From NCBI GenBank assembly GCA_009758405.1, contig WSBC01000016.1, forward strand, positions 124,001-188,000: DNA of 64,000 nucleotides. Reading direction: 5' to 3'. Positions 40,357 through 45,593 of the stretch are shown here, piece after piece; position 1 is the first letter of the stretch; each line of letters starts with the position of its first letter. The translations under genes and the position numbers were made by a program. The notes beneath the pieces were generated by a model. The model saw only the letters and a program-made list of their open reading frames with translations. It was not told where the DNA came from and made no database searches. This stretch comes from Methanobacteriota archaeon (GTDB taxonomy: Archaea; Thermoplasmatota; Thermoplasmata; Thermoplasmatales; ARK-15).

Positions 40357-40605
40357 ATGAAAATATTAATAAATATATTGAATGGAAAAAGTAATATTCA
40401 GGAGGAGATGGTGGCATTTAATTTTTCAATTAATAGAGTAAAAAATACAAATGAAGAAATTGAAATGCTATTTCTGGATCAAGCGGTGCAGGCATTGAAT
40501 AGGAAGCAGGCAAATTTAAAGCAAATCAAGGAACAAATAGATAAAGTTAAGGAGGTAAGGATAAATATAAAGACATTTTCAGTTATCTTAAAAATTAAGG
40601 ATTAA
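40357..40605 (+). CDS. Small protein, possibly a truncated DsrE-like domain
   Basis: MKILINILNGKSNIQEEMVAFNFSINRVKNTNEEIEMLFLDQAVQAL resembles a DsrE-type N-terminus but lacks the C-terminal half. Confidence 0.4.
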   Translation: MKILINILNGKSNIQEEMVAFNFSINRVKNTNEEIEMLFLDQAVQALNRKQANLKQIKEQIDKVKEVRINIKTFSVILKIKD

Positions 40606-40701: not shown

Positions 40702-41479
40702 ATGTTTGAAATAACATATTTGCAGATGGTTCTTTTCATTATTTCTGGTCTAATAGTTGGTTTTTCACTTGGTTTAATTGGGGGTGGTGGATCAATTTTT
40801 GCAATTCCTTTACTAATATATTTTGTTGGTTATGATCATCCTCACATTGTAATTGGAACTACGGCTTTAGCTGTTAGTATAAACGCATTTTTGAATATAA
40901 TTCCTCATGCAAGAAAAAACATGTGGTATTTAAAAAGGGAATAATATTTAGTATTCCAGGAATATTTGGAGTGCTAGTTGGTGCTGAGCTAGGCCTCTTA
41001 AAACCTTGCAAAAAATTGCTTTTCATATTTGCAATATTAATGATTATAATAGCAATCTATATGCTAAAAAGAAAATATACAAACGAGTCAGAAAATCCAA
41101 CATTAAAAGAATCTTATCCAAAGCATCTAAGTATTGGTTTTATTGTTGGTTTTTCATCCGGATATTTCGGTATAGGGGGTGGTTTTCTTATTGTTCCAGG
41201 ATTAATATATTCAGCTGGTTTGAATATAATTCAGGCTGTAGGGACCTCTCTAATTTCAGTAGGTTTATTTGGTTTTGTTACAGCACTTCGATATTCTTTG
41301 AATGGTGATTTAAACTTATTAATTACGTCTTTATATATTGCTGGAGGTATATTAGGTGGTTGGATTGGGACTACTTTGCAACCAAGGTATCTAAGAGAAC
41401 ATTGACAAAGATTTTTGCAATTAAAATTATTTTAGTAGCAATATATATGATGTATATGAATTTTACAGCATTTTTTTAA
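40702..41479 (+). pseudogene. TauE/SafE family transporter with two apparent frameshifts
   Basis: GLIGGGGSIFAIPLLIYFVG then frame change near 40932-40936 (A run), GYFGIGGGFLIVPGLIYSAG, second frame change near 41375-41377 (T run) restoring ATKVSKRTLTKIFAIKIILVAIYMMYMNFTAFF to stop at 41479. Confidence 0.8.
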
Positions 41480-41585
41480 AAATTTAATTCTTATTTTTTG
41501 CAATAGTTATAAAATTTATAAAAATTATAATTTTTATAAAATAAAAATTATATATTAGAAAATAATTACATAAATGGGTGATAGA

Positions 41586-41930
41586 ATGAGATTATTGATA
41601 TTGATTTTTATCAGTCAAATGATTCTTTTTGGCACAACCAATACAGTGACTGCAAATATGGGGACATTCACAATTCACCAAAACTTTACAAATGCAACAC
41701 AGGATCTGAAAAACATGCTTTCAAGGCTAACATTTGTAGTTAATTCTATTGCAATATCAATACTTTCCATAATGTGGATATGGGAGGGAGTTTTCCTTTT
41801 CTTACATAAGGATGACAGAGAGGGGATGCTTAAATTTAAGCATGATCTTCCAACAATGATAATTGCATCTGTAATTATACTTGGTGCATCCATAATAGTA
41901 AACATTATCGGATACATAGCGCACGGGTGA
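41586..41930 (+). CDS. VirB2/TrbC-like (CedA1-like) pilin candidate
   Basis: GGTGAT SD before ATG 41586; signal-like N-terminus plus two TM helices separated by a short charged loop (FLHKDDREGMLKFKHDLP). Confidence 0.6.
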   Translation: MRLLILIFISQMILFGTTNTVTANMGTFTIHQNFTNATQDLKNMLSRLTFVVNSIAISILSIMWIWEGVFLFLHKDDREGMLKFKHDLPTMIIASVIILGASIIVNIIGYIAHG

Positions 41931-41934
41931 AAAT

Positions 41935-42966
41935 TTGTTTGATATAGGTCAGATTATTAATGCCGTACTTACGCAACTTTTATTTTCATTGAATTTACTT
42001 TTAATTTCTGGTATAGGAATATTATGGCAATTCTTCATATTCCCTTTTTTAAATCCCAATTTTTCATTTCCATACCCTCTTGAAAATGGAGATATACCAT
42101 CATTAAAGCCTGTATGGATACCTGGAAATTTTTTACCTGGTTATCAGACCTACGCTCAAATTGGTATGGATTTTTCAGTAAATATTAGCGTGATTTTCTT
42201 AAATTATATTGTTGCCCCATTCTTTTCCATTTTTTTAATAGTTGCTGCATTTACATATCTTTTTAAGCATACATTCTTTGGTATTGAGAGGTTTAGGGAT
42301 TATATTCCAAGGATTTTCTTAGGAATTGTACTTGCCTATTTATCCATATTCATTGTTGATGCATTTTTCTACATTTCAAGAACAATATATTTTTTTATAT
42401 ATTCTGGATTAAATATTGTATGGAACGGAAATCCTTCACCATATCAAGGTATTTCATCTCTCCAATATTGGCCATGGAACTATTTCTTAAATTTTAATCT
42501 TTCAACATATGGAACAAATGGATTATTGGAGTTTATCATATTGCTTGGATTGTTATCATCAATGCTCATTTTTACAATTCTTCTAGTGATGAGAATTGTG
42601 TGGATTTATTTTCTAATAATTATACTTCCATTAGCATCTTTATTTTTAATGCTTCCCCAAACTGAGAATTTAGGAAAATCAATATGGCTATCTTTTATTG
42701 ACAAAACTTTTGAAATAGTGTTTATGGGAATTGTTATACTATTTCTTGGTTTTATTATGGACCCCCTTTTTTGGACAGCAATATTTCTTGTTGCATCTTT
42801 TGTTCCAAGATTTATGGCGATTTCACCTAGGGTAACAGGTACAGTTTCCATAAGAAATTATTTACCAAGAATTCTCATAGGTGAAAAGATTGTTGATGCA
42901 TCAAAAAAAGCTGTAACGGGAGGTACAGGTATTAATTTACTTCCAAAGTCGGGTGGTGGAGGATGA
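41935..42966 (+). CDS. VirB6/TrbL/CedA-like polytopic membrane protein
   Basis: 343 aa with many TM helices, TTG start coupled to previous gene, located between pilin-like and PrgI/VirB4-like genes. Confidence 0.6.
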   Translation: MFDIGQIINAVLTQLLFSLNLLLISGIGILWQFFIFPFLNPNFSFPYPLENGDIPSLKPVWIPGNFLPGYQTYAQIGMDFSVNISVIFLNYIVAPFFSIFLIVAAFTYLFKHTFFGIERFRDYIPRIFLGIVLAYLSIFIVDAFFYISRTIYFFIYSGLNIVWNGNPSPYQGISSLQYWPWNYFLNFNLSTYGTNGLLEFIILLGLLSSMLIFTILLVMRIVWIYFLIIILPLASLFLMLPQTENLGKSIWLSFIDKTFEIVFMGIVILFLGFIMDPLFWTAIFLVASFVPRFMAISPRVTGTVSIRNYLPRILIGEKIVDASKKAVTGGTGINLLPKSGGGG

Positions 42967-43700
42967 CTATTACTGTTGATCTTCCTGAGCCTCTTAGTTT
43001 TGATAGTTACCTTTTTAACCTATCCTTTTCACAGCTAAGCAGAATAATAATATACAGCATACCTTTAGTATATTTTGCACTTATTTTTTCTCCATACCTT
43101 TTTTTGATTTTACCTCTTCCATATTTTATTATGAAAATAAAGTTATATGGTTTAGACCCAGACCTATTTCTTTTCAAATATATCAAGTGGAGATTTTCAA
43201 AAAAGGTATATAGCCCAGATGAGATAAAAAATAAAATATCAACAAAAATTGAGGGTAAATTTTTGTCCTGGATGGAGGGTTATCTGGGTGCAATAGAGGT
43301 AGATGGAATTGGAATAGAGTTCTATGATGAGGAATCGAAGAATTTTATATATAATAAATATAATGAATTCTTAAATGGTCTTGATTTCCCTATATCAATT
43401 TATATCTATTCCATAAAGAATGAAACAAGTGAAATTGATTTTGATACGAGTAATACGCTTTCAAGGATTGTGGCAAGTCAAAATAAGCTTATTAAAGAAA
43501 TTTTAAAGAATATATCAAGAAAAAAATTCTTAGTTTTGATATCTCTGAAATATTATGAGGTAGGTGTGCTAAATGCACAACATGAAAAAATACTTGAAGA
43601 TAGAATAAATTATGTGGAAGATAGCCTTAGAGATATGGGATTGAATTGTAAAAGGTTGAAACCTAACGAATTAGAAAAAATAATTGGTGAAATTCTATGA
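42963..43700 (+). CDS. PrgI/VirB3-like N-terminal membrane domain fused to a soluble domain
   Basis: VDLPEPLSFDSYLFNLSFSQLSRIIIYSIPLVYFAL...LYGLDPDLFLFKYIKWRF, then about 150 aa soluble. Confidence 0.6.
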   Translation: MTITVDLPEPLSFDSYLFNLSFSQLSRIIIYSIPLVYFALIFSPYLFLILPLPYFIMKIKLYGLDPDLFLFKYIKWRFSKKVYSPDEIKNKISTKIEGKFLSWMEGYLGAIEVDGIGIEFYDEESKNFIYNKYNEFLNGLDFPISIYIYSIKNETSEIDFDTSNTLSRIVASQNKLIKEILKNISRKKFLVLISLKYYEVGVLNAQHEKILEDRINYVEDSLRDMGLNCKRLKPNELEKIIGEIL

Positions 43701-43984
43701 AAGAAAATGATTTCCTATGGGTACTCTTATCCTCATTCATTGTTTCTACATTGATTCTATATTTTAGTCCTGATCTCTGGGGTTGGGCCATAATAAATAT
43801 AATTGCATTTATATATTACTTAATAATTATAAAGGAATACAAATGGATCCTTACATGGTCTATACCTTTTATATTAATTTATATATTTTCAAAGAACATA
43901 TTTTTTATTCTACTGGAATCAACCCTTTTATTTATTATATTTTTAATAAGGGGGGAAAAGAATGTATTCAATAATATTTGGTAA
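43697..43984 (+). CDS. Small polytopic membrane protein in the VirB4 operon
   Basis: 95 aa, several hydrophobic helices, 4-bp overlap upstream and 23-bp overlap downstream. Confidence 0.55.
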   Translation: MKENDFLWVLLSSFIVSTLILYFSPDLWGWAIINIIAFIYYLIIIKEYKWILTWSIPFILIYIFSKNIFFILLESTLLFIIFLIRGEKNVFNNIW

Positions 43985-45593
43985 AAGGCATTTTGTTACA
44001 AAAAAATATAACTATATGCCTATTTTTGTTGAAGAACTTCCAAAGACTGTTAAATTTGGATTAATGGAGAAATTTATAAGATCGGATAAATGGGTTGATT
44101 TGTCGATTCACATTTCCCCTTTGGAAGATGACGTAATAATGAAGATACTTGATTCTGACAATGAAAGACTAAATGCAGAGATTTCAGAGGGAAAAATACT
44201 TTCATCAAGATACAGAAAAATAATAAGAAAGCTTGAAAGTCTGAAAGAAATTCAAGATTATATAATATCAGGCAAAGGGCATATCTATGAATTTTCATTA
44301 TTTTTATTTCCAAAAGGAATTAATTTTAATCAAAGTGAAATTGTTTATAATGAAATTTCACATGAAATGAGAAGGTTTATTTTTAAATTTTATAGACCAT
44401 ACTATAGGCAAGAAATAGCATTAAAGAATCTTTTACCAACGGGTGAACATATCCCAGAAAAACCACACTATTTGCATACTCATGGCTTATCAGCATTTTT
44501 TCCTTTTCTTTCAGATTATATTGAGATGGAGGGTGGAATATTTTATGGTATTAATGAAAGGAATGGTTCCCCAGTGTTTTTAAACAGATGGATTTTTCCA
44601 TCTTCTCATTATATAATTACAGGCACTACTGGCTTTGGTAAATCATATTTTGTAAAACTAATGATATTAAGAGAGGTGATCAATGACCCTTCCTTGAGAA
44701 TATTCATAATAGATCCCATGGGCGAATATTCATCACTTGTAAAGCTACTAGGGGGCACAAATGTAAAGGTTGGTGAAAAGGGAAGTGAAATAAATCTTTT
44801 GGATCTGCAGGGAAATAGGAACTTCAGGGAAAAGGTATCAAGGCTAAGGAATATATTCTCAATAATTTTGAATCTCAATAAGAATGAAATGGCAATATTA
44901 GATTCCATTCTGACCTCACTTTATATAAAAAATGGAGATCCAAAGATATCCGACCTTTTGGATTTACTTAAGGAAGAACAGGGAGGGGACCTCTATTATT
45001 CAATGGAAAGATTATTTACCGGGTCTTTAAAGAACCTTAATTCTGAAACAAGGGTAAATTTAAACAGAAAAATAATTTCATTTGATCTTTCAAATTTAAG
45101 TGATGAATATTTAACACTTTATATGGCTATAATTCTTGATCACATATATGGTAAAGTATCCATGGACTATGAAAAGAAGCTAGTAGTGGTTGATGAAGCA
45201 TGGAAATTATTAAAAAATGAATATTCTGCAATTTTTATTGATTCAATGTTCAGACATGTTAGAAGATGGAAATGCGGAATGAATGTAATATCCCAGAAGG
45301 CTGATGATTTTTTAGAAAATCCCTATGGTAGATCTATGGCCAATAACTCACTCTTTCATATAATTTTTAAGCATCCATCAATAAATGAGAGTGTAAGGCA
45401 TTTCTACAAATTAAATTCAAAGGAAGAGGAATATATCATTAATGCAGAAAAACCAAAAACAGGAAAATTTTCACAGGCATATTTCATTTCACATCCTCTT
45501 AGGTTTCCACTTAAGGTAGTTTCAACCCCAGAAGAAAATATTTTTATTACAACAGATCCAGATGAATTGAGGGAAATAGAAAAATTAATATAA
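43962..45593 (+). CDS. VirB4/TraC-type (CedB-like) ATPase
   Basis: Walker A GTTGFGKSYFVKLM, IFIIDPMGEYSSLVKLLGG, Walker B KLVVVDEAWKLL, RHVRRWKCGMNVISQKADDFL. Confidence 0.9.
   Translation: MYSIIFGKRHFVTKKYNYMPIFVEELPKTVKFGLMEKFIRSDKWVDLSIHISPLEDDVIMKILDSDNERLNAEISEGKILSSRYRKIIRKLESLKEIQDYIISGKGHIYEFSLFLFPKGINFNQSEIVYNEISHEMRRFIFKFYRPYYRQEIALKNLLPTGEHIPEKPHYLHTHGLSAFFPFLSDYIEMEGGIFYGINERNGSPVFLNRWIFPSSHYIITGTTGFGKSYFVKLMILREVINDPSLRIFIIDPMGEYSSLVKLLGGTNVKVGEKGSEINLLDLQGNRNFREKVSRLRNIFSIILNLNKNEMAILDSILTSLYIKNGDPKISDLLDLLKEEQGGDLYYSMERLFTGSLKNLNSETRVNLNRKIISFDLSNLSDEYLTLYMAIILDHIYGKVSMDYEKKLVVVDEAWKLLKNEYSAIFIDSMFRHVRRWKCGMNVISQKADDFLENPYGRSMANNSLFHIIFKHPSINESVRHFYKLNSKEEEYIINAEKPKTGKFSQAYFISHPLRFPLKVVSTPEENIFITTDPDELREIEKLI

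Follow-up and report, generated by a model that had tools for sequence, protein, structure and literature searches.

Operon structure and protein identities

The window analysed here is a 64,000-nucleotide stretch of contig WSBC01000016.1 from a Thermoplasmatales genome (G000; 1.3 Mb, 89% complete) whose nearest named relative is the metagenome-assembled genome (MAG) Aciduliprofundum sp. ARK-15. At 41586-45593, five same-strand genes, designated A to E, lie head to tail, overlapping or separated by a few bases, and their predicted products make up a small type IV secretion system (T4SS; Table 1). The tight packing described in the first-pass annotation was recovered in full, with all open reading frames (ORFs) in place. 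An AT-rich promoter region lies upstream of the Shine-Dalgarno-like element preceding A, B starts with TTG and has GGTGA at the stop of A, the B/C and C/D junctions are ATGA overlaps, and D and E overlap by 23 nt. The TFB gene noted downstream of E is indeed present, at about 45633; a functional link between it and the operon was dropped, as TFB is not adjacent to the operon in relatives.

Table 1. Features of the operon. TM, transmembrane; aa, amino acids.
Feature	Position	Strand	Basis
Shine-Dalgarno-like GGTGAT	41575..41585	+	Read directly from the sequence, just 5' of the ATG at 41586
A: VirB2/TedC-like pilin, 114 aa	41586..41930	+	Signal and two TM helices; T4SS_pilin, TrbC and Mbov_0395 profiles
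B: VirB6/CedA-like polytopic pore protein, 343 aa, 6-7 predicted TM	41935..42966	+	TrbL/VirB6 matches in family members; distribution
C: PrgI/VirB3-like TM segment and first part of VirB4 N-terminal domain, 245 aa	42963..43700	+	NF045975; fused C-E model
D: membrane protein, 95 aa, 3 predicted TM	43697..43984	+	Counterpart fused to VirB4 N terminus in genome G096
E: VirB4 ATPase (rest of N-domain and motor), 543 aa	43962..45593	+	CD1110, 4ag5, Walker motifs

Four of the five genomes in the window's family (f1; families carry labels such as f1, f2 and f15) have the genes in the order A-B-C-D-E. Identity between G000 and the ARK-15 MAG is 74-81% for A, B and E and 47-50% for C and D. Nonsynonymous divergence (dN) is 0.13-0.41 for the five genes and well below synonymous divergence, which is mostly saturated; this conservation at the protein level indicates that all five genes are maintained and are not chance ORFs. 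C and D (42963-43984, compared with L036:11478-12487) have a dN of 0.41, evolving about three times faster than the pilin, pore and ATPase (0.13-0.16).

The VirB4 assignment of E proved sound. E matched the NCBIfam VirB4 CD1110 family (1.7e-62), the Mbov_0397 VirB4 model (8.9e-49, model positions 303-652) and the solved VirB4 structure 4ag5 (1.5e-14), and it carries Walker A (GTTGFGKS, residue 221) and Walker B (LVVVDEAW, residue 407) motifs. It is thus the VirB4-family ATPase expected of a T4SS of the mating-pair formation (MPF) class FATA. The earlier view of C as a PrgI-type protein stood only in part. A weak PrgI match was found (0.029), and C also matched NCBIfam VirB4_plasma (NF045975, the Mbov_0397 model) at 3.3e-12 over positions 35-274, directly before the stretch matched by E. 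C and E form a single gene in G034, G082, G210, G122 and other genera, and a model of such fused proteins (eight proteins, 669 positions) is covered by C at 9-191 and by E at 225-665. Because the two cover this model in succession, C and E represent the two pieces of a divided PrgI-VirB4 protein, and D lies between them; in G096, it is VirB4 itself that carries the D counterpart, fused at its N terminus. In hhalign comparisons, the soluble part of C further aligned (4.3e-10) with the unnamed ORF that directly precedes virB4 on a plasmid of Pontibacillus; against Finegoldia PrgI, C gave a negative result. C would therefore provide the VirB3/PrgI-like anchor that adjoins VirB4 in MPF-FATA systems.

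A had been described as a signal-bearing pilin with two TM helices, and the profiles agree. The window protein has a cleavage-like signal site read by eye (VTA before the cut, N after it) and by itself matches T4SS_pilin weakly (E 0.007), while among 32 members of its family T4SS_pilin was matched by 28 (best 1.7e-8), the Mbov_0395 pilin-like conjugal transfer protein of a mycoplasma integrative and conjugative element (ICE) by 24, and TrbC/VirB2 by nine (best 9.9e-10). B, proposed to be a VirB6-like polytopic protein, is the weakest assignment by sequence. Alone it gave no profile match; TrbL/VirB6 was matched by 4/36 family members (best 1.6e-4), and the pore alignment matched a haloarchaeal plasmid T4SS protein (hhalign 5.8e-4, with unrelated membrane proteins at 0.33-0.51). 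Two other plasmid candidates did not match in hhalign, nor did a VirB6 profile search of plasmids return a match. The constant position of B between pilin and VirB4 supports the VirB6 identity, and B would be the polytopic pore expected of an MPF-FATA system. The profile comparison with VirB2 and VirB6 suggested at first pass was therefore supportive, although weak for the pore, and PDB profile searches with the pilin and pore alignments returned nothing relevant, CedA1 and TedC included. The pilin alignment was likewise negative against a haloarchaeal ORF (hhalign), and homology between pilin and pore, as reported for CedA1/CedA, was unsupported here (hhalign probability 2%).

Distribution, descent and mobility genes

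The B profile found a match in 5/5 f1 genomes, in 90/117 genomes of the order and in 162/400 sampled from the class, nearly always as one copy per genome. Counted from this profile census, the VirB6 family is present in 45 of 51 high-quality genomes of the order; five of the six lacking it belong to f2, and outside f2 it occurs in 40/41. G228 is one of the genomes without the operon. A pilin-domain gene, VirB6 and VirB4 lie on one strand in 45 of the 46 genomes whose loci were read. In the exception, G096 (L038, L059), C and the D-E fusion share one contig and VirB6 lies on a second, directly after a secreted protein of 657 aa that has a TM helix at its C terminus; no pilin is recognisable beside this VirB6.

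With the translation factor IF2 as species marker, all six families of the order were clades in the VirB4 tree and five of six in the VirB6 tree; the IF2 tree likewise recovered the families. Mantel correlations with IF2 were 0.81 (VirB4) and 0.62 (VirB6) overall and 0.89-0.97 within f3 and f4, and VirB6 was significantly correlated within f1 (r 0.95). In f1 and f4, conservation of the system falls below that of IF2, which is what vertical inheritance of a faster gene predicts. Flanking genes, named mostly by reading sequences, are also conserved across genera: the gcvT side of the operon is shared by G000, G270 and G198, topoisomerase VI is a neighbour in 7/7 f4 loci, as is the thioesterase/rpiA (ribose-5-phosphate isomerase) region across many f3 genera, and purS-purL is close to it in both f1 and f3. 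The system is thus vertically inherited with core-gene status, as in Ced and Ted, and the patchy, island-restricted presence that had been named beforehand as counting against domestication was not observed. In G000, the gcvT block and the operon are separated by an 82-aa ORF at 40357 and a TauE/SafE sulfite-exporter gene (40702-41479, plus strand), the latter divided between ORFs in different frames that match Pfam positions 2-59 and then 63-215; neither gene intervenes in G270 or G198.

Mobility genes were sought with one relaxase family (PF03432) and one type IV coupling protein (T4CP) family (PF02534). In agreement with the first-pass annotation, which had seen neither nearby, no PF03432 relaxase was found in the f1 genomes, nor in the f3 and f4 genomes tested, and no PF02534 T4CP was found in G000. 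Weak T4CP hits in f1, f3 and f4 and a second VirB4-like hit in G000 were HerA orthologues, except that a small contig of G096 encodes a TraD-like protein. A linked relaxase or integrase, likewise named beforehand as contrary evidence, was absent: the sole integrase-family match in G000 is on another contig, and the window holds no tRNA. The G000 system is accordingly not classed as conjugative, and it lacks the linked integrase or att sites and the sporadic distribution of an ICE.

Family f2, which we take to be Aciduliprofundum (G013 being presumably Aciduliprofundum boonei), differs. Here the system is patchy (5 of about 18 genomes), and between G206 and G174 it has 97.2% nucleotide identity versus 74.4% for the IF2 genes, which indicates recent transfer. 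In G013 and G357, virB4 shares its replicon or contig with a T4CP (1.5e-25) that has a relaxase-like ORF beside it; the ORF matches at E 0.005 and 0.002, short of the curated cut-off. Since the same searches find these genes in f2, the negatives in f1, f3 and f4 are informative, and two lifestyles of one machine, mobile and domesticated, coexist within the order. In the f2 elements (L041:13826-18685, L040:690-6678), the pilin domain is expanded into several proteins of 320-405 aa, beside which G357 has a large Ig-domain surface protein.

Other families show additions at the virB4 end. In 7/7 f4 loci (L046:11505-13544, L047, L060-L063, L077), a second ATPase of 677-700 aa, with CedB as its best NCBIfam match (1.4e-8), overlaps the virB4 3' end, and f4 may run a two-ATPase, Ced-like version. 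In f15 (L048, L049, L074-L076), a gene of one family stands beside virB4 in 5/6 loci, and the one member checked against Pfam is an N4/N6 DNA methylase. Many f3 genera have a small convergent two-TM ORF at the virB4 3' end (L122:6739-6930, L123:6405-6659, L126:6504-6758, L127:6686-6946, L129:6217-6456), possibly a CedA2-like accessory.

Proposed function and alternative readings

On balance we favour reading the locus as a chromosomally domesticated, minimal MPF-FATA (monoderm) T4SS, kept vertically in Thermoplasmatales, whose C+E motor moves DNA between cells. It contains the Ced/Ted-type component set, namely a VirB2-like pilin, a VirB6-like pore and a VirB4-like ATPase, encoded on the chromosome without a relaxase. 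Domestication is supported by the near-universal single copy, the IF2-like phylogeny, the fixed neighbourhoods and the lack of a detectable relaxase, T4CP or linked integrase in G000; order-wide distribution and IF2-congruent trees likewise support the first-pass proposal of a Thermoplasmata counterpart of Ced and Ted. It is probably a housekeeping device, and we infer DNA import or exchange as its best-supported function. In the proposed mechanism, C and E would jointly form one VirB4 N-domain and a hexameric motor under pore B, to which the PrgI segment of C (and D) would anchor it. A would build a thin VirB2/TedC-type pilus bridging two cells, and the motor would carry chromosomal DNA (single-stranded) from one cell to another of its species, most probably into the cell as Ced does, to serve repair and recombination. 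Import is favoured over export because, like Ced and Ted (PMC9905601, PMC11868833), the system has no relaxase or T4CP with which a donor would load DNA.

Several points weigh against this interpretation. Both DNA as the substrate and the inward direction are drawn by analogy from Ced and Ted. E belongs to the VirB4 clade and not to CedB, scoring 56 bits on the CedB model against a cut-off of 700; by this measure the system is not Ced itself. The VirB4-IF2 correlation was not significant within f1 (n=5, r 0.37, with the long branch of G348), and AlphaFold models of B and C, built from two-sequence alignments, had mean predicted local distance difference test (pLDDT) scores of 45 and 37, too poor for use. 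G000 may also carry a T4CP or a relaxase belonging to some type not yet described, given 89% completeness and a single family model for each search.

A pilus or protein-secretion device, with A as an adhesive filament or the machine exporting protein and DNA uninvolved, appears unlikely. Chromosomal T4SSs without a relaxase (MOB) gene have been proposed as protein exporters (PMC3158045), and both the large Ig-domain and pilin-fused surface proteins of the f2 version and the secreted protein just before VirB6 in G096 would suit such a role. Most f1, f3 and f4 loci, however, have no linked candidate effector or adhesin gene, protein-exporting T4SSs mostly retain a T4CP (PMC12102498), and the conservation of the pore and the motor alongside the pilin seems to exceed the needs of a simple pilus. 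We consider it quite unlikely that the same machine exports chromosomal DNA, or works both ways, by relaxase-less conjugation or distributive transfer. CedA1, CedE and UpsC do influence export as well as import in Saccharolobus (PMC11868833), and parts of mycoplasma ICEs, which come from wall-less cells (PMC12857230), are among the bacterial profiles nearest to A, C and E; no T4CP or nickase for loading donor DNA was nevertheless found in G000 with the PF02534 and PF03432 models.

An integrated conjugative element or its remnant is very improbable. The gene order resembles that of conjugative plasmids, A. boonei has been reported as having the only archaeal ICE (PMC3158045), and the T4CP and adjacent relaxase-like ORF of G013 and G357 show mobile relatives in f2. 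Set against this are the mobility-gene negatives given above for f1, f3 and f4, the maintenance of all five genes, the almost universal single copy and the congruence with IF2, by which this explanation is largely refuted for the window.

Returning to the domesticated DNA-transfer system, we hold as an even chance the broader proposal that it is an order-wide core organ of genetic exchange in Thermoplasmata, which would add a euryarchaeal lineage to Ced and Ted; its mobile sister, the Aciduliprofundum-type element with T4CP and relaxase-like gene, would show what was lost. According to a statement made in 2023, no conjugation apparatus domesticated for DNA transfer had been reported besides Ced and Ted (PMC9905601); a core system shared by cultured genera, Thermoplasma and Ferroplasma among them, would take the phenomenon into a further phylum. 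Ferroplasma populations are mosaic and highly recombining (PMC2704941); an order-wide exchange organ would, if true, explain this recombination mechanistically and offer a testable mechanism for the mosaicism. With mobile and domesticated versions side by side in the order, the passage from one to the other could be traced, and a minimal T4SS of three to five proteins would be of use for structural work.

Relation to known systems

We take genome G067 to be Cuniculiplasma divulgatum S5. The Cuniculiplasma genome paper lists a type IV secretion cluster, CSP5_1185-1189 / CPM_1190-93 (VirB4, a multipass protein and membrane proteins), which is apparently orthologous to the window operon, annotates it as secretion components only, without connecting it to DNA import or addressing its distribution or origin (PMC5155288). 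The first-pass remark that no characterised equivalent was known in the lineage is thus qualified by this uninterpreted listing, and it holds for a Ced/Ted-type link: no publication connecting Thermoplasmata with such DNA exchange was found in a search that left out subscription journals and preprints, so that priority is uncertain. The Cuniculiplasma paper was also the only one found, in the same search, that names these arCOG families.

Among mobile systems, those of the MPF-FATA class are similar to the window in protein families and in the order pilin, VirB6, PrgI/C-like protein, VirB4, the nearest profiles being those of mycoplasma ICEs (Mbov_0395 pilin, Mbov_0397 VirB4) and CD1110-type elements. 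The window system differs in having no detected relaxase, T4CP or wall hydrolase and in its vertical inheritance at fixed loci. Plasmids of Finegoldia, Pontibacillus and haloarchaea (L137, L138, L139, L140) have a similar arrangement: first a pilin or small ORF, next a larger protein (membrane or T4SS), then a PrgI or C-like ORF followed by virB4; most of these genes are annotated as hypothetical.

Ced and Ted are relaxase-less VirB2/VirB6/VirB4 systems (PMC9905601, PMC11868833). Ced of Sulfolobales (CedA, CedA1, CedA2, CedB, CedD) has the same functional set, and a VirB4 N-domain spread over two polypeptides has been proposed for CedB/CedD (PMC11868833); in the window, however, the split separates the N-domain from the motor and does not yield two ATPases, and E is best matched by VirB4 CD1110. 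Ted of Thermoproteales (TedC pilin, TedA VirB6-like, TedB VirB4-like), compared here by description, is likewise chromosomal and relaxase-less, with a pilin bearing a cleavable-looking signal and an ATPase of the VirB4 clade rather than CedB. Unlike Ted, the window operon belongs to a different phylum, is compact and without HerA/ParA neighbours, and has a PrgI/VirB3-like segment, a split VirB4 N-domain and the extra membrane gene D.

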